Shown here: one piece after another, positions 42,398 through 49,499 of the stretch
Layout: each line of letters opens with the position of its first letter
How positions within the stretch are numbered: position 1 is the stretch's first letter
Assembly: GCF_018437275.1 (NCBI RefSeq)
Contig: NZ_JAAMFK010000003.1
Location: 62,001 to 126,000, forward strand
Source of the DNA: Fructobacillus broussonetiae
GTDB lineage: Bacteria > Bacillota > Bacilli > Lactobacillales > Lactobacillaceae
Direction of reading: 5' to 3'
Length of the DNA stretch: 64,000 nt
Made by a program: the position numbers and the translations under genes
The notes under the pieces: model-generated
What the model was told of the DNA's origin: nothing
The model's database searches: none
What the model saw: the letters and a program-made list of their open reading frames with translations, nothing else

Positions 42398-43735
42398 ATG
42401 TCAACACAATACGATTACGATGTCATTTTCATCGGTGCCGGTCACGGTGCCTTTGATGGGGCGCCTGCTTTAACTGCCGCTGGTAAGTCCGTTGCTTTCA
42501 TCGAAGAAGACAAAGTTGGTGGAACCTGTCCAAACTGGGGCTGCAACGCCAAGGTTATTTTGGAAGCACCGGCCAAGCTCACGCAGACAGTCAAGCAATC
42601 CGACGGTGTCATCGCCGGTGACGCCTACATTGACTGGGAAAAGGCCATGGCACGGAAACAAGAAATCGTGAACATGTTCCCCGGTGCCATTCAGTCCGGC
42701 ATGGAAGAAGCGGGAATCCACTTCATCTTCGGACACGCTTCATTTAAAGATGAGCACACAGTAACGGTCGATGGTAAGACGGTCACAGCCGATCAATTCG
42801 TCATCGCAACTGGTCAACATTCTCACCGATTGGATATTCCCGGAAAAGAGTACCTCCACGACTCAAAGGATTTCTTATCCATTAACCACGTACCTGACAG
42901 AATGGTCATCATCGGTGCTGGTTACATCGCTTTAGAAGCCGCTTCCATCATGCAGGCGGCTGGTTCGAAGGTCACGGTTATCATGAAGGGCGACCAAGCT
43001 TTGAAAGGCTTTGACCGAGATTATACCAATGAGTTGGTCAAGGCACTGGCTGATCAAGGCGTGCTCTTCATTAAGAATGCCGATGTTCAGGGTGTCGAAC
43101 AAAACGGCGCCGGTTATACGGTAAGCGCAAGCACCGGTTCATACCCCGCTAATTACATCTTGGATGCGACCGGCCGCGTTCCAAACACGAAAAATCTTGG
43201 ATTAGAAGGCCTCGGCATTGACTTTGACGAACAGGGAATCGTCGTGAACGGTTATCTCCAAACAACAAAGCCAAACATCTATGCAACGGGTGACGTGGTT
43301 AAGAAGGACCAGCCAAAGTTGACGCCAACGGCCACCTTCGAGTCTCAGTATGTGGCTGACCACATTTTGGGTAACGATAACGCTGAAATCAACTACCCTG
43401 CTATCGCAACGACTGTCTTTACCACGCCTCGTTTAGCCCAGGCTGGTATCACTTTGGAAGAAGCGAAGGCTAACGAAGATAAGTACACCATCGTTGAACA
43501 AAACGTCATGGACGACTGGTACCGTTTGGTTGACTTCGAAAAGACTGGTAAGCGTTCGTTGATTTATAATAAGGACGGTCAACTGGTCGGTGTTATCGAA
43601 TTATCCGATAAGGCAGAAGACGTTGTAAACGCCTTGTTGCCAGCCATTGAATTTGGTTATACACAAAAGCAGATTAAGCGTTTGGTCACCATCTTCCCAT
43701 CAATTGGTTACTCAGCTTTGGATAACTTGCAGTAA
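42398..43735 (+). CDS. Pyridine-nucleotide disulfide oxidoreductase family FAD protein lacking the C-terminal His-Pro
   Basis: A 445-residue flavoprotein of the glutathione-reductase/dihydrolipoamide-dehydrogenase family. FAD-binding GAGHGAFDGA is at 13-22, the redox pair Cys44/Cys49 in GGTCPNWGCNAK, NAD(P)-binding GAGYIALEAA near 172 and the second FAD motif ATGDV near 300. Family enzymes end with a His-Pro-T-x-x-E motif donating the catalytic base to the partner subunit; here the position reads TIFPSIGYSALDNL (Phe433-Pro434), without His. It may reduce a small oxidant or metal instead of a disulfide. AGGAGG precedes the ATG. Confidence 0.85.
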   Translation: MSTQYDYDVIFIGAGHGAFDGAPALTAAGKSVAFIEEDKVGGTCPNWGCNAKVILEAPAKLTQTVKQSDGVIAGDAYIDWEKAMARKQEIVNMFPGAIQSGMEEAGIHFIFGHASFKDEHTVTVDGKTVTADQFVIATGQHSHRLDIPGKEYLHDSKDFLSINHVPDRMVIIGAGYIALEAASIMQAAGSKVTVIMKGDQALKGFDRDYTNELVKALADQGVLFIKNADVQGVEQNGAGYTVSASTGSYPANYILDATGRVPNTKNLGLEGLGIDFDEQGIVVNGYLQTTKPNIYATGDVVKKDQPKLTPTATFESQYVADHILGNDNAEINYPAIATTVFTTPRLAQAGITLEEAKANEDKYTIVEQNVMDDWYRLVDFEKTGKRSLIYNKDGQLVGVIELSDKAEDVVNALLPAIEFGYTQKQIKRLVTIFPSIGYSALDNLQ

Positions 43736-43799: not shown

Positions 43800-45848
43800 T
43801 TATTCGATTCCTGAACCAGGTTCAACAGCTTCTGGCAAAACCGTCACCGTGACGATGCCGTTCTTTTCAGCTGACAAAACCATTCCTTCAGAGAGTTCTC
43901 CGGCCATCTTACGTGGGGCCATGTTGGCAACGATAGCAACCGTCTTTCCAACAAGAACTTCTGGTTCTGGATACCACTTTCGAATTCCAGAAAGAATTTG
44001 GCGTGGCTTTTCTGAGCCATCATCCAACGTAAACTTCACGAGCTTCTTTGACTTAGGAAGCAATTCAGCCGCCGTAATCTTAGCTGCCAAAATTTCAACC
44101 TTGTCGAAGTCGTCGTATTCGATCAACGCCTTGTGTGTTGCTTCTTCTGTCATCTCGTTATCCTTCTTCTGGGCTTCGTTCTTCTTTGCTTCCTTTGCGG
44201 CGCGTCCCTTACCCTTCGTATCCTTTGATACCAATGAGGCGATGAAGGCGACTTCTTCTTCCACATCCAAGCGTGGGAAGATTGGCGTTCCCTTCTTAAC
44301 GACGGTTCCGCCGGCTGGCAAAGCAGCCATTGAAAGATCATTCAAATCAACACCGGATTCTGGTTCTTCCAAACCGAGTTGTTCGAAGATTTGCTTTGGC
44401 GTTTCAACCATGACAGGCTGAAGCAAAGCCCCAACGACGCGCAAAGTTGCGGCCAAGTGGGCCATTACAGATGCCAAAGCTTCTTTGGCGTCGGCGTTTT
44501 CGCCCGCAGACTTTGCCAAAACCCAAGGTTCTGTTTCGTCGATGTACTTGTTAGCACGGCGAACGATTGACCAAACGGCTTCAAGTGCGTCAGCGGTATG
44601 AACCCCCTGCATGTTTTCTTCGTAAACAGCGATTTGTTCGGCAACCAACTCTTCCAATGAAGAATCGAATTCAGTCACGTCTGAAGTAAAGGCTGGGACA
44701 GTTCCGCCTTCGTACTTGTTAATCATGGCAACCGTTCGGTTCAACAAGTTACCAAGGTCGTTTGCCAAGTCATAGTTCACACGGGAAACGAAGTCTTCTG
44801 GTGAGAAGACACCGTCGTTTCCAAATGGCATGGCACGGAGCAAGTAGTAACGGACCGCATCCAAACCATAGCGTGACGTCAAGTCTTCAGGGTAAATCAC
44901 ATTTCCCTTTGACTTGGACATCTTACCGTCCTTCATGACGAGCCAGCCGTGTCCGATGATTTCTTTTGGCATGTCCAAACCAAGGGCGTGGAGCATGATT
45001 GGCCAATAGATGATGTGGAAACGAACGATTTCCTTACCAACCAATTGAACGGAGGCTGGCCAGAACTTCTGGAGCAAATCGTCGTTGTCTGAACCGTAAC
45101 CCAAGGCCGTAATATAGTTGGCCAAGGCATCGATCCAAACGTAGATGACGTGCTTTGGATCACCCGGTACAGGAACACCCCAGTCAAATGACGTACGGGT
45201 CACGGCCAAGTCTTCCAAACCAGGCAAGATGAAGTTTTGAAGCATTTCGTTCATTCGTGATTCAGGTTGAACGAAATCAGGGTGTGACTTGTAGTAGTCG
45301 ACCAACCAGTCCGCGTACTTAGACATCTTGAAGAAGTATGTCTCTTCTTGAATCTTCTCCACTTCGTGACCAGATGGCGCCTTACCACCCGTCATGTTAC
45401 CGTCAGCGTCGCGGTAAACTTCGGCCAACTGTGATTCCGTGAAGTATTCTTCGTCGGAAACCGAGTACCAACCTTCGTACTGCCCCTTGTAGATATCGCC
45501 TTGGTCCAAGAGCTTTTGGAAAATCTTTTGAACGGCTTCTTCGTGCTGCTTATCCGTCGTCCGAATAAACTTGTCGTAAGAAATATCCATCAAAGACCAG
45601 AGGTCCTTGATATCCTTGGCCATCTTGTCCAAGTATTCCTTTTCGCTCTGCCCAGTGGCAGCAGCTTTCTTTTGAATCTTTTCACCGTGTTCGTCCGTTC
45701 CCGTGAGGAAAAAGACGTCTTCACCTAACAAACGGTGGTAACGCGCAGCGGCGTCAGCCAAAACCGTCGTGAAAGTGTTTCCCAATTGCAACTTCCCAGA
45801 TGGGTAGTAGATGGGGGTCGTAATGTAAAAGTTCTTGTTTTCTGACAT
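43800..45848 (-). CDS. metG: Methionyl-tRNA synthetase
   Basis: A 682-residue class I synthetase. The HIGH motif is the variant Gln21-Leu-Gly-Asn24 in YPSGKLQLGNTFT, a form close to the KLTIGN of lactobacilli; the KMSKS loop is in DGKMSKSKGN. A C-terminal EMAPII-like tRNA-binding domain follows a Lys/Glu-rich linker from about residue 560. The zinc-knuckle cysteines are not present. The ATG at 45848 follows AAAGGGA. A TATAAT lies about 40 bases upstream; no T-box is visible. Confidence 0.96.
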   Translation of the reverse strand: MSENKNFYITTPIYYPSGKLQLGNTFTTVLADAAARYHRLLGEDVFFLTGTDEHGEKIQKKAAATGQSEKEYLDKMAKDIKDLWSLMDISYDKFIRTTDKQHEEAVQKIFQKLLDQGDIYKGQYEGWYSVSDEEYFTESQLAEVYRDADGNMTGGKAPSGHEVEKIQEETYFFKMSKYADWLVDYYKSHPDFVQPESRMNEMLQNFILPGLEDLAVTRTSFDWGVPVPGDPKHVIYVWIDALANYITALGYGSDNDDLLQKFWPASVQLVGKEIVRFHIIYWPIMLHALGLDMPKEIIGHGWLVMKDGKMSKSKGNVIYPEDLTSRYGLDAVRYYLLRAMPFGNDGVFSPEDFVSRVNYDLANDLGNLLNRTVAMINKYEGGTVPAFTSDVTEFDSSLEELVAEQIAVYEENMQGVHTADALEAVWSIVRRANKYIDETEPWVLAKSAGENADAKEALASVMAHLAATLRVVGALLQPVMVETPKQIFEQLGLEEPESGVDLNDLSMAALPAGGTVVKKGTPIFPRLDVEEEVAFIASLVSKDTKGKGRAAKEAKKNEAQKKDNEMTEEATHKALIEYDDFDKVEILAAKITAAELLPKSKKLVKFTLDDGSEKPRQILSGIRKWYPEPEVLVGKTVAIVANMAPRKMAGELSEGMVLSAEKNGIVTVTVLPEAVEPGSGIE

Positions 45849-46059
45849 ATGAGTCCCTTTCTGGCAAATGTGCCGATACCGCCTTTCATTATAGCAAAAT
45901 GCCGTCCTCCTAACCACTTGCCTTCATATGTAAAAGTCTGACCCGTACCAGCCAACAATTTTTCGCCTTTTGTTCAATAAAGCAACAATACCGGTTTTAT
46001 TTAATAAACAGAATGTAAAGCCATTATCGCCCATGCCATCGAATTTTTAAGGGATTTTA

Positions 46060-46088
46060 TTGACAAAAAAATACCCCACCGGTACACT
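46060..46088 (+). promoter_or_regulatory. Sigma-A promoter of the cystine-transport attenuator operon
   Basis: TTGACA (46060-46065) and TACACT (46083-46088) with the ideal 17-base spacer. Transcription should begin near 46095, just before the leader-peptide ribosome site. Confidence 0.85.
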
Positions 46089-46113
46089 TGAGAAAGAATA
46101 TAAGGAGGCAACT

Positions 46114-46188
46114 ATGAACGCAAACACTAACTTTCACAACCAAATCGCTTTGACTTTCACGGTTTGCTGTTGCCCACCGCTTTTTTAG
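46114..46188 (+). CDS. Cysteine leader peptide of an attenuator
   Basis: A 24-residue ORF with a strong AAGGAGG five bases before the ATG. It ends TVCCCPPLF, with Cys codons TGC-TGT-TGC at 46165-46173 followed by two Pro codons, then Leu, Phe and TAG. It has no transmembrane or secretion pattern and makes sense as a sensor of charged tRNA-Cys: the Cys codons immediately precede the first arm of a hairpin array, and the operon downstream encodes a cystine transporter. Ribosome stalling at the Cys codons would cover the first arm and free the second. This is read directly from the sequence; the regulatory behaviour is inferred by analogy with trp and his leaders. Confidence 0.85.
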   Translation: MNANTNFHNQIALTFTVCCCPPLF

Positions 46189-46216
46189 GGTGGCGTTCAT
46201 AGGTTAAAAGCCACCC
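46173..46216 (+). promoter_or_regulatory. Anti-terminator segments of the cysteine attenuator
   Basis: Segment 1 CCCACC (46173-46178) can pair with segment 2 GGGTGG (46188-46193). Segment 2, extended to GGGTGGC (46188-46194), can instead pair with segment 3 GCCACCC (46210-46216). Segment 2 begins at the last base of the leader stop codon, so a ribosome finishing the peptide would hide it. Confidence 0.8.
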
Positions 46217-46255
46217 TCGGTCTCTGTCTTTTTCGAGACCATGGGTGGCTTTTTC
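46207..46255 (+). terminator. Attenuator terminator (segments 3:4)
   Basis: AAAAGCCACCC pairs with GGGTGGCTTTT; an inner helix GGTCTC (46219-46224)/GAGACC (46235-46240) extends the stem, and a T-run follows. It uses the same segment 3 as the anti-terminator. Confidence 0.88.
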
Positions 46256-46323
46256 TATAGGCTCAAACAGTTGAACAGTTAATCAATAGTAGAAAATAAT
46301 TAAATTGCATTAGGAGCAAAAAA

Positions 46324-47118
46324 ATGAATAAGAAGATCATCATTATCTTGGCCGGCTTGGCCGTTATCATCGCAGGAATCGTCGGTTTCAATAAGTTTGC
46401 CGGATCAAAGGATAACGGCATGACCATCAAGAAGAATACGCTGACGGTTGGTGTTGAAGGAACATACGCTCCCTTCTCCTTCCACGATGACAAAGGAAAG
46501 TTAACCGGATTCGAAGTTGAAATCGCCGAAGCGCTCGGTAAGAAGATGAACATGAAAACGGAATTCGTCCAAACCAAGTGGGATTCATTGATCGCAGGTT
46601 TGAACTCAAAGCGTTACGATGCCGTGATTAACAACATCGGTATTTCAAAGGAACGTGAAGCAAACTACCGCATGTCAACGGCTTACCTTTACCCACGCGC
46701 CGCTTTGATCAAGCGTACGGGCGACACGTCATTGAACAATTTGTCAGACATCAAGGGCAAGACGATGGCCCAGTCCGTTACGTCAAACTATGGAAAGCGC
46801 GCCAAGGCCGAGGGTGCTAACATCAAGGCCGTTGCTGGAATCATCGAATCAATGAACTTGATTACAACAAACCGTGCCGATGGAACGTTGAACGATCTTG
46901 GTTCATTTGAAAACTGGAAGCAATCAAACCCTGACGCCAACGTCGAAGCCGTTGACGTCTCAAAGGAAATGGGTTCAACGCCTGATGGTGTTTTGATGAA
47001 CAAGGATAACGCTGAACTTCAAAAGAAGATCAATAAGGCAATGAAGGAACTCCGTGAAGATGGCACGCTTTCAAAGCTTTCAAAGAAGTACTTCAACAAG
47101 GATTTGACGAAGGAATAA
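46324..47118 (+). CDS. Cystine-type ABC transporter substrate-binding protein
   Basis: A 264-residue amino-acid-binding protein (SBP family 3). The N-terminal hydrophobic segment (5-22) has no lipobox cysteine, so the protein is probably held by an uncleaved helix rather than lipid. The ligand region VGVEGTYAPFSFHDDKGKLTGFEVEIAEALG closely resembles cystine-binding proteins (TcyA/FliY type), as does DGTLND. AGGAG precedes the ATG. It is the first structural gene after the cysteine-codon attenuator, which supports the substrate. The protein contains no cysteine. Confidence 0.88.
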   Translation: MNKKIIIILAGLAVIIAGIVGFNKFAGSKDNGMTIKKNTLTVGVEGTYAPFSFHDDKGKLTGFEVEIAEALGKKMNMKTEFVQTKWDSLIAGLNSKRYDAVINNIGISKEREANYRMSTAYLYPRAALIKRTGDTSLNNLSDIKGKTMAQSVTSNYGKRAKAEGANIKAVAGIIESMNLITTNRADGTLNDLGSFENWKQSNPDANVEAVDVSKEMGSTPDGVLMNKDNAELQKKINKAMKELREDGTLSKLSKKYFNKDLTKE

Positions 47119-47158: not shown

Positions 47159-47857
47159 ATGACAGAATTTTTCGACCTGGCAGTTAAGTACCTGCCGGAA
47201 CTATTCATCACCGCAATCAAATACACGCTGCCACTCGCAGCCATCTCATTCTTCTTCGGATTGATTTTTGCTTCGATGACAGCCCTCATTCGCGTGGCCA
47301 AGTTGCCACAAAACGAGTGGGCGGCCGCCTTCTTGCAAATCATGAAGTGGATTGCAAACGTCTACGTCTGGTTCTTCCGTTCAACACCGTTGTTGGTCCA
47401 ACTCTTCATCGTGTTCTACGGATTGCCAAACGCACACATCGCCTTTTTCCAATCTGCTTGGGTATCAGCCATCACCGTGTTCTCATTGAACACCGGAGCC
47501 TATGCCTCCGAAACGATTCGCGCTTCCATCAACTCCGTTCCAGAAGTGCAAAAGCAAGCCGCTGAATCACTCGGAATGACCCGCGCACAAGTATACTGGA
47601 ACGTGGTCTTGCCACAGGCAGCCCGCATCTCCATCCCGCCGTTGTCCAACTCATTGATTGGTTTGTTGAAGGACACGTCATTGGCATCCGTCATCACGAT
47701 TGTTGAGATTTTCTACCTCTCACAGCAGATTGCCGCTGCCAACTACAAGGTTTTGTCCATGTACGTCTTAGTCGCCATGGTCTACGCCTTCTTCACGACT
47801 ATCCTATCAATCGGACAACACTACCTAGAAAAGTACACATCGAGGTTCGCCCAATGA
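47159..47857 (+). CDS. Cystine-type ABC transporter permease
   Basis: A 232-residue HisM/GlnP-type permease with five or six helices. The N-terminal polar motif FFRSTPLLVQ (72-81) and the cytoplasmic EAA loop (about 128-150, ending GMTRAQVYWNVVLPQA) are characteristic of polar amino-acid uptake systems. It overlaps the ATPase gene as ATGA. No cysteine residues. Confidence 0.92.
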   Translation: MTEFFDLAVKYLPELFITAIKYTLPLAAISFFFGLIFASMTALIRVAKLPQNEWAAAFLQIMKWIANVYVWFFRSTPLLVQLFIVFYGLPNAHIAFFQSAWVSAITVFSLNTGAYASETIRASINSVPEVQKQAAESLGMTRAQVYWNVVLPQAARISIPPLSNSLIGLLKDTSLASVITIVEIFYLSQQIAAANYKVLSMYVLVAMVYAFFTTILSIGQHYLEKYTSRFAQ

Positions 47858-48588
47858 TCTCAGTTAAAAACTTAGTGAAGCAATATCCTGATAAAAAGGC
47901 CTTGGACGACGTAAGCGTGACTTTCAAGGCGGAAGAAACGACGGCGATCGTCGGTCCTTCTGGTTCTGGTAAATCCACGTTACTCTGGGCCCTTAACCTC
48001 TTGGAGCACCCCACATCCGGACAACTTCAAATCGATGATTTGACGGTGGATTTTGAAAAGTCCCTGTCGAACCAGGAAGTTTTGGAACTGCGCCAAAAGA
48101 CGGCAACGGTCTTCCAGGAAAAAGCCTTGTTTACGCATCTAAACGTTTTGCATAACTTAACTGAAGGACCGGTGAAGGTTCAAAAGAAGTCAAAGCAGGA
48201 CGCTGAGCAGCAAGCCTTTGACCTCTTGAAGCAGTTCGACATGGAAGAGCTTGCTGATCGTTATCCATACCAATTGTCTGGTGGGCAACAACAGCGTGTG
48301 GCCATCCTCCGTGCCTTGGCAATGCAACCAAAGTACTTACTCTTGGATGAACCAACTTCAGCCTTAGATCCTGAATTGGAGGCACAAGTCCTCCGCGTCT
48401 TGAAGGACTTGGCTAAGAAGGATACGTCCATGGTTGTGGTCACGCACAACATGGCCTTCGCCGAGCAAGTCGCTGACCAAGTTGTCTTTATCGACGGCGG
48501 TAAGGTCGGATACGCAGGTGAAACAGAAGGTTTCTTCCACTCTGACAACGAACGCATCAAGAAATTCTTAGGAGCAATGTCTTTCTAA
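47854..48588 (+). CDS. Cystine-type ABC transporter ATP-binding protein
   Basis: A 244-residue ABC ATPase: Walker [10 protein letters not shown] (34-42), signature LSGGQ (141-145), Walker B LLLDE (162-166) and switch His198. It resembles GlnQ/TcyC-type ATPases. It powers uptake with the preceding permease. Its stop overlaps the start of the nuclease gene by one base (TAATG). No cysteine residues. Confidence 0.93.
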
Positions 48589-49499
48589 TGGCTAGAAATT
48601 ATAGTAAGAAAGCCCGGCAACGTAGTTTTAGCGCAACCGTCACCGTACTCATCGTCATGGTGGCGGTTTTGTCGTTTCAACACTTTACGTCACCTGACAA
48701 CGGCCAAAAAGGAAATAACCAAGCAAACCAAGAAAAGGTTTGGAAGCAAAACCAAAAGGCAGATAAGAAACGGACCAACGTGCAAACCGTTTCTTCTTCC
48801 GACCAAGAACTCCTAAACATCAATTGGGACGGAACACTCGATGGTGACATCGTTCACCTGAACGACAACAAGGCCACTTTCTCAGATGCTGAACTGCACC
48901 AGACTTTCCCCGGTAACGGAAGCAAGTTAAACCCTACAGACGGCCTCGCCCTATCGCCCTTAGACGAACTTGGCCGTTCGCAACAAGGAAACTTCCTTGC
49001 CTCTAAGAAAGCCATGGACAAGGTCACAAAGCGTCCGAGCCAAATCGGTAAGAACGTCCGACCATCCGGCTGGAATCAAGGCGACCACTTCAACGGAACA
49101 GCCTGGGTCGGCGGAACGCACTCAAACCCACGCGTGAAACTAGGTGGAAGCGAACAAGCGTTGTGGAATAAGTCCCACATTGTTGGTTACCAGTTCTTCG
49201 GTATGCCGACGATGGTGACGGAAAACATGACGACTGGGACGCGTGTCGAAAATGCCTACCCTGGTCAACTTGTTCCGGAAGACGACATTCGCTATGCGCT
49301 AAAGGAACACCCAAACATCACCATTCGCGGCCAAGTAACGCCCGTTTATAACGGCAACGAACTCGTACCTCGCGGCGTGCACTACATGGCGAAATCAGTT
49401 GAAGACAACGGTCAAACGCTTGATTTGAACTACTGGATTTTCAACGTTCAACCCGGTGTTCAAATTGACTACAACACAGGTGCTTCAAAGATCAATTAA
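48588..49499 (+). CDS. Membrane-anchored DNA/RNA non-specific endonuclease
   Basis: A 303-residue protein with an N-terminal transmembrane segment (about 15-31), a Gln/Asn/Lys-rich linker, and a C-terminal non-specific nuclease domain of the EndA/NucA-like beta-beta-alpha-metal type. The DRGH-equivalent is NKSH with catalytic His197, followed by the conserved Asn-containing TENMTTGTRVEN. Such surface nucleases degrade extracellular DNA for nutrient use or during DNA uptake. It overlaps the ATPase gene by one base, so it is translationally coupled to the cystine transporter and falls under the cysteine attenuator. No cysteine residues. Confidence 0.85.
   Translation: MARNYSKKARQRSFSATVTVLIVMVAVLSFQHFTSPDNGQKGNNQANQEKVWKQNQKADKKRTNVQTVSSSDQELLNINWDGTLDGDIVHLNDNKATFSDAELHQTFPGNGSKLNPTDGLALSPLDELGRSQQGNFLASKKAMDKVTKRPSQIGKNVRPSGWNQGDHFNGTAWVGGTHSNPRVKLGGSEQALWNKSHIVGYQFFGMPTMVTENMTTGTRVENAYPGQLVPEDDIRYALKEHPNITIRGQVTPVYNGNELVPRGVHYMAKSVEDNGQTLDLNYWIFNVQPGVQIDYNTGASKIN

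Follow-up and report, generated by a model that had tools for sequence, protein, structure and literature searches.

How is the predicted cystine importer that begins at position 46324 controlled, and what part is played by the Cys-codon leader upstream of it? These points were explored in the window (the whole 64,000-nucleotide stretch of DNA analysed) and in related genomes. The comparisons and folds, all of them drawn from sequence, argue that a Cys-responsive, ribosome-mediated transcription attenuator very probably controls the importer.

The operon and its leader

The leader elements and the three transporter genes lie on the + strand. The importer genes encode a substrate-binding protein (SBP, 46324–47118), a permease (47159–47857) and an ATPase (47854–48588). 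The best NCBIfam match of the SBP was the cystine ABC transporter SBP, and the best families of the permease and the ATPase were the cystine ABC transporter permease and the L-cystine ABC transporter ATPase TcyN, each below its curated cut-off. The three genes agreed in this respect with the cystine-type transporter proposed in the first-pass annotation, and the regulatory codon (Cys) matched the transport function predicted from these below-cut-off families. Among solved structures, the SBP was closest to 2yln/3zsf, labelled an amino-acid binding protein and nothing more specific. In the source genome, which is 91.8% complete, no match to cysK was found and cysE gave a partial match alone, below the cut-off; the organism is possibly a cysteine auxotroph. 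A DNA/RNA non-specific endonuclease-like gene (Endonuclea_NS_2, 48588–49499), an odd operon partner, shares its first base with the end of the ATPase gene and is therefore probably part of the cystine operon.

A promoter scan located a sigma-70 type promoter at 46060–46088 (TTGACA-17-TACACT, 10 of 12 consensus letters), with the −35 TTGACA beginning at 46060 and the −10 TACACT ending at 46088. Downstream, the sequence read-out gave the leader ribosome-binding site (RBS) AAGGAGG (46102–46108) and a leader ORF of 24 codons (46114–46188, MNANTNFHNQIALTFTVCCCPPLF), also recovered from relatives, which runs from the ATG at 46114 to the TAG at 46186–46188. Its peptide ends in VCCCPPLF, and the putative regulatory Cys codons TGC TGT TGC occupy 46165–46173. 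Segment 2 (GGGTGGC, 46188–46194) is the candidate 5′ strand of the antiterminator on the basis of the sequence, the pairing test and the state folds. Segment 3 (GCCACCC, 46210–46216) may pair with segment 2 or with segment 4 (GGGTGGC, 46243–46249, followed by T5). The promoter, the strong RBS, the ORF, the three Cys codons and segments 2, 3 and 4 with their trailing T-run all lie where the first-pass annotation had placed them.

Segment 3 is also the 5′ arm, and segment 4 the 3′ arm core, of T2, an intrinsic terminator hairpin with a T-run (46208–46254). The 10-nt loop of T2 and its internal loop explain why a simple terminator scan of 45800–46500 returned no sites; a search based on folding recovered the hairpin at −26.6 kcal/mol. 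Two further elements had been missed by the first-pass annotation. The hairpin P1 (46160–46179, CGGT..ACCG) has the Cys codons inside it and is followed by a C and T6 (46181–46186). The long-range helix LR, first seen in minimum-energy folds, joins the leader start region to a strand past the leader stop; in the window, its 5′ strand CTATGAACGC (46112–46121), which overlaps the leader start codon, pairs at 10 of 10 positions with its 3′ strand GCGTTCATAG (46193–46202), supported by folds and a clade-swap test. The 164-nt region 46094–46257 folded at −56.7 kcal/mol (z −5.28), which none of 200 shuffles equalled. Among the 93 RBS-led short ORFs of 7–45 aa in the 64 kb window, this leader was the single one bearing CCC.

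Other assignments of these elements were considered and rejected. The metG gene runs the opposite way and T2 therefore cannot belong to it; the nearest real-looking + strand gene upstream, an oxidoreductase gene, ends at 43735. Neither a T-box nor another known riboswitch was matched in Rfam at gathering thresholds in the window or in 19 loci, and no T-box match was obtained up to E 5 in 45950–46330. A weak promoter-like site at 46271–46300, between T2 and the SBP gene, could bypass the attenuator.

Cys leaders and conserved pairings among relatives

A family search gave matches at E 1e-50 or better in 229 of 397 genomes. Upstream DNA was read at all 30 places of at least 50% identity among the matches listed and at 39 places of 39–48% identity chosen from the same matches; a fortieth region, L062, duplicates G373. 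A short Cys-containing ORF was present upstream at all 30 listed places, 13 in Fructobacillus and 17 elsewhere in Lactobacillaceae. The analysed set comprised 29 of these leaders, namely 13 Fructobacillus-type and 16 L-type (groups g39, g6, g16 and g18); the thirtieth (L061, g29), read by hand, encodes MVFNYDKCQTC-stop behind a poor RBS. Among the 39 more distant places, a Cys leader was recognised by eye at 10 (L063, L066, L068, L069, L070, L073, L079, L080, L098 and L100), possible ones at L086, L092 and L096, and none in the rest. A comparable leader was not found at Streptococcus ratti L044 (32% identity). The further leaders at L063, L098 and L100 are Cys-rich (..GCCC-stop, MTKYCCSMSMCQMQNNEQDQTICRS) and precede more distant transporter relatives, and in L066 the g29 Cys leader is MFLINHKNRYCETRAL, with an 11-bp run pairing to a region at the terminator 5′ arm.

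The first ORF filters required Cys, and the leader was therefore re-chosen from promoter distance with Cys ignored. A promoter-like site was present in 27 of the 29 leaders (window counted in) and absent from two. In 22 of these 27, taking the earliest ATG that lay 12 nt or more past the −10 gave the same leader ORF; in the remaining five, an ATG at, or no more than 2 nt from, the SD precedes it. Cys accounted for 47 of 596 residues in the leaders, first found with the Cys-requiring filter, vs. 2 of 2175 in six neighbouring long ORFs, a control from the window alone. In 17 of the 29 leaders, a distance of exactly 21 nt separated the first Cys codon used from the stop that follows.

The terminator was found between the leader and the first gene in 29 of 29 leaders by the fold-based search, which was run without a shuffle control. 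The T2 5′ arm is truncated in g16.G252 (L052; −4.3 kcal/mol) compared with its near relative L054, and the switch may be decaying there. The Fructobacillus alignment contained 12 leaders, 11 of them distinct; ESL0958 was left out because its layout differs. The P1 and T2 arms were paired in 91.5% of its cells (P1 84.1%, T2 100%), and two-sided changes occurred in 13 cells vs. 4.0 in shuffles, with 0 of 500 shuffles as high; three P1 pairs carried such changes. In the L-type alignment (12 of the 16 leaders, from g39, g6, g16 and g18), LR, P1 and T2 were 84.6% paired, with 32 two-sided cells vs. 11.7 in shuffles (0 of 500), all of them in nine pairs of T2 and a single pair of P1. Neither the count of pairs showing two-sided change (10 vs. 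7.8; 53 of 500 shuffles) nor that of the pair types (469 of 500) was exceptional. Comparison across relatives, put forward with the first-pass annotation as the way to judge it, found the Cys codons kept and compensatory changes in P1 and T2.

An RNA model, R1, built from the 12 L-type leaders and run on the 397 genomes, matched in 36. Among these were the 12 genomes used for training, G050, which is nearly identical, and the untrained leaders of G348 (E 3.2e-5) and G318 (E 0.0024); the other matches lay at E of at least 1.7e-6. R1 gave no match in G095 or in any of the 13 genomes of Fructobacillus. The pattern CACCGGTATTTTG with one mismatch occurred in 385 of 397 genomes, which was chance-like and uninformative.

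The general idea of Cys-codon attenuation in the first-pass annotation was well supported by these comparisons, whereas its four-segment anatomy with a conserved 1:2 pairing was not. Segment 1, CCCACC, had been taken as the partner of GGGTGG, the true complement of which is CCACCC. In the claimed register, 54.5% of cells were paired and two central pairs failed in all 11 distinct Fructobacillus sequences. The best actual pairing joins CCACC (46174–46178) to GGTGG (46189–46193), 5 bp in the window; its fifth pair failed in 6 of 11 sequences, and this shifted register of 4–5 bp had 87.3% of cells paired and covariation not above shuffles, 156 of 500 being as good. In Fructobacillus, the 2:3 pairing was 97% paired and mostly invariant, and 174 of the 500 shuffles scored at least as well; across clades 913 of 59,999 permutations were as good, a weaker result than for LR. 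The L-type 2′:3 pairing was 73.8% paired, with a covariation score above 500 of 500 shuffles and below a control slid two columns. In the other genera, segment 2 is part of the P1 5′ arm, immediately in front of any ribosome held up at Cys.

For LR, native partners out-paired clade-swapped ones across the 29 leaders in 8 clade groups, with 6 of 60,000 permutations as low; for these swaps, g18 was split in two by eye. With one leader per group, the swap sum was −121.2 for native vs. −82.7 (sd 9.4) for swapped partners. Leader by leader, the fractions against a shuffled 3′ strand ranged from 0.000 to 0.765, and LR was weak in the tropaeoli clade, where 10 of 24 (G001) and 7 of 24 (ficulneus) swaps were as good. 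The L-type LR columns contained one-sided changes alone, and two-sided change was not found in them. LR persists across clades despite sequence turnover. At the level of sequence, the comparisons established that the elements are present and that the Cys codon, LR, P1 and T2 are conserved.

Ribosome states and competing explanations

For 28 leaders, transcripts ending just past segment 3 were folded with the ribosome at Cys, at the stop or absent; g16.G252 was omitted because of its truncated T2. When the RNA 3′ of the ribosome alone was folded, the median antiterminator probability was 0.86 for the ribosome stalled at Cys, 0.00 at the stop and 0.26 without a ribosome, and the stalled value exceeded the ribosome-free one in 21 of 28 leaders and the stop value in 27 of 28. 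When enclosing pairs were allowed, the stalled median was 0.84, and the stalled value exceeded the ribosome-free one in only 14 of 28 leaders and the stop value in 22 of 28. Under this treatment, 6 of 7 main-clade Fructobacillus leaders were locked by LR, with an antiterminator probability of 0.16 or less; the window gave 0.00 for the antiterminator and 1.00 for LR. LR thus won around the stalled ribosome in the window fold, and the "on" state would therefore need LR to be hindered. The ribosome-free antiterminator already reached at least 0.5 in 11 of 28 leaders, and the stop state of ESL0958 was not off in the model.

A stall-codon scan covered 18 of the 29 leaders (13 of the 16 L-type and 5 Fructobacillus). 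In all 13 scanned L-type leaders, the antiterminator was lost within two codons past Cys (medians 0.86 at Cys and then 0.61, 0.21 and 0.05), with a steep fall at the second codon in the five g18 leaders; in the 5 Fructobacillus leaders, it dropped four to five codons past the first Cys. Stalls upstream of Cys also freed the antiterminator in nearly all scanned leaders in this model, and the exact edge of the fall was set by the assumed footprint of 9–10 nt past the first base of the A-site codon.

From these states, we infer the following course. Transcription would start past 46088, and P1 with its U-run would cause a pause or an early stop during leader synthesis. LR crosses 2:3, and hence the two are mutually exclusive in nested folds. 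On the ribosome-free leader, LR would join the leader start region to the strand 3′ of segment 2, and T2 is therefore proposed to form (off); LR probably makes "off" the untranslated default, a role that fits LR and the Cys-enclosing P1 better than 1:2. With plentiful Cys-tRNA, a ribosome at the stop would mask segment 2 and T2 would form again (off). With Cys-tRNA in short supply, the ribosome would stall on the Cys codons, disrupt P1, occupy the LR loop and hinder LR sterically; segment 2 could then pair with segment 3, and T2 would be blocked (on).

A related arrangement may exist in g18. Six g18 leaders (MNFRMRC, MSLGMRC or MALGMRC before the stop) end in Cys-stop and have no evident terminator (L068:480–589, L069:212–340, L070:481–589, L073:215–342, L079:212–339 and L080:480–589). 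There, TTAAC.GGTG just past the Cys-stop pairs with CACC.GTTGA adjoining the transporter RBS in 98.1% of cells across the six; two sequences carried a two-sided change, at a single pair, which is not above shuffles (106 of 500 as good). A ribosome at Cys might then uncover the transporter RBS, in a possible translational version of the Cys switch.

Could the leader work in another way? A classical hungry-codon leader usually has more regulatory codons than one, and the single Cys codon of most non-Fructobacillus leaders speaks for a nascent-chain arrest peptide, with cysteine, cystine or a drug as the ligand sensed in the exit tunnel; this reading was judged improbable, as the tunnel-lining residues upstream of Cys differ widely between clades. 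Nor did the Cys-bearing short ORF look accidental: its presence at 30 of 30 listed close orthologue places, the position of Cys with respect to the antiterminator and the retention of LR through sequence turnover argue against a constitutive 5′-UTR terminator with a chance ORF, whose conserved pairings would set basal expression alone. That 2:3 covariation was not above shuffles in Fructobacillus favours the constitutive terminator, which nevertheless appears very improbable. Least credible is a functional small Cys-rich peptide (metal-binding or secreted), for which the CCC motif in seven Fructobacillus leaders, window included, could be cited; the peptides have 11 to 28 residues with little kept between clades except Cys, and the leader start region is also used in RNA pairing.

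P1 is a candidate pause hairpin that may also terminate, and it might even be the main terminator T1, with T2 as a back-up and a stalled ribosome preventing termination at P1 and T6. This reading, compatible with the main explanation, is rather unlikely. P1 covaries and is followed, directly or past one C, by T6–T7 in 12 of 13 Fructobacillus-type leaders (TTATTT in papyrifericola), and in ESL0958 it stands apart as a hairpin of its own, with CTTTTTT just past Cys-Cys-stop. However, in the 13 Fructobacillus-type leaders P1 is weaker than T2 (−6.1 to −8.8 vs. −15.8 to −32.9 kcal/mol), and in the 16 L-type leaders, where P1 reaches −9.3 to −13.4, it is followed by ATTTTG (14) or TTTTTG (2) alone. 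A tentative elaboration of the Cys-responsive attenuator, less firmly held than the attenuator itself, is a two-checkpoint device for an RNA polymerase that may outrun the ribosome: P1 and U6 might hold or end transcription, and LR might lock the leader start onto the strand of the antiterminator. The transporter would then possibly be made only with a ribosome on the leader and stuck at Cys, and the Cys sensor might be coupled to termination in most genera and to RBS hiding in the g18 MxxxMRC-stop group.

Relation to known systems and significance

Leader codons, mutually exclusive hairpins and a pause hairpin characterise the enterobacterial trp and his attenuators, and comparable features are predicted here, with P1 as a candidate for the pause hairpin. 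Unlike in those systems, the default block on the antiterminator would come from LR with the leader start and not from 1:2. In older trp work, a distal leader segment reportedly pairs with the trpL ribosome site. Mycobacterial polycysteine leaders are reportedly cysteine-responsive, leaderless ORFs, to go by the title of Canestrari 2020.

The motif uORFC-8-2, upstream of cysS in Rhodobacterales, is a predicted case of ribosome-mediated attenuation (PMC8632094). Like the present leader, that uORF carries its tandem Cys codons within a first stem, and a terminator follows; in contrast, it belongs to Alphaproteobacteria and its target is cysteinyl-tRNA synthetase, whereas Fructobacillus and a transporter are concerned here, and the excerpted text does not mention a helix between the leader start and the post-stop region such as is present here (PMC8632094). 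The actinobacterial polycysteine leaders likewise have Cys runs near the leader stop and cysteine genes downstream; however, no conserved terminator hairpin was found for them in 2005, whereas T2 is present here, and the actinobacterial and mycobacterial leaders precede biosynthesis genes rather than transporter genes (PMC1262725). The M. smegmatis polycysteine leader is presented as a case of translation attenuation (PMC13236596). Within Firmicutes, leader-peptide attenuators with a terminator and an antiterminator have been predicted for histidine, in the B. cereus group, Peptostreptococcaceae, Lutispora and Erysipelotrichales (PMC2965389, PMC9413887), and his genes of Lactobacillales are there placed under T-box control (PMC9413887). 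No description of a Cys leader-peptide attenuator in Lactobacillaceae was recognised among the papers listed by searches of the openly licensed PMC literature. Firmicutes leader-peptide attenuation and Cys-codon leaders elsewhere are known, and hence the variant is novel and the kind of mechanism is not.

Runaway transcription is ascribed to Bacillota as a phylum (PMC13323073), and ribosome-timed termination should therefore be hard in these bacteria. A Cys attenuator in several genera of one family, together with a possible lock set by the absence of a ribosome, would make leader function without tight coupling directly testable in food bacteria that are harmless, and a natural cysteine-responsive expression element would result.
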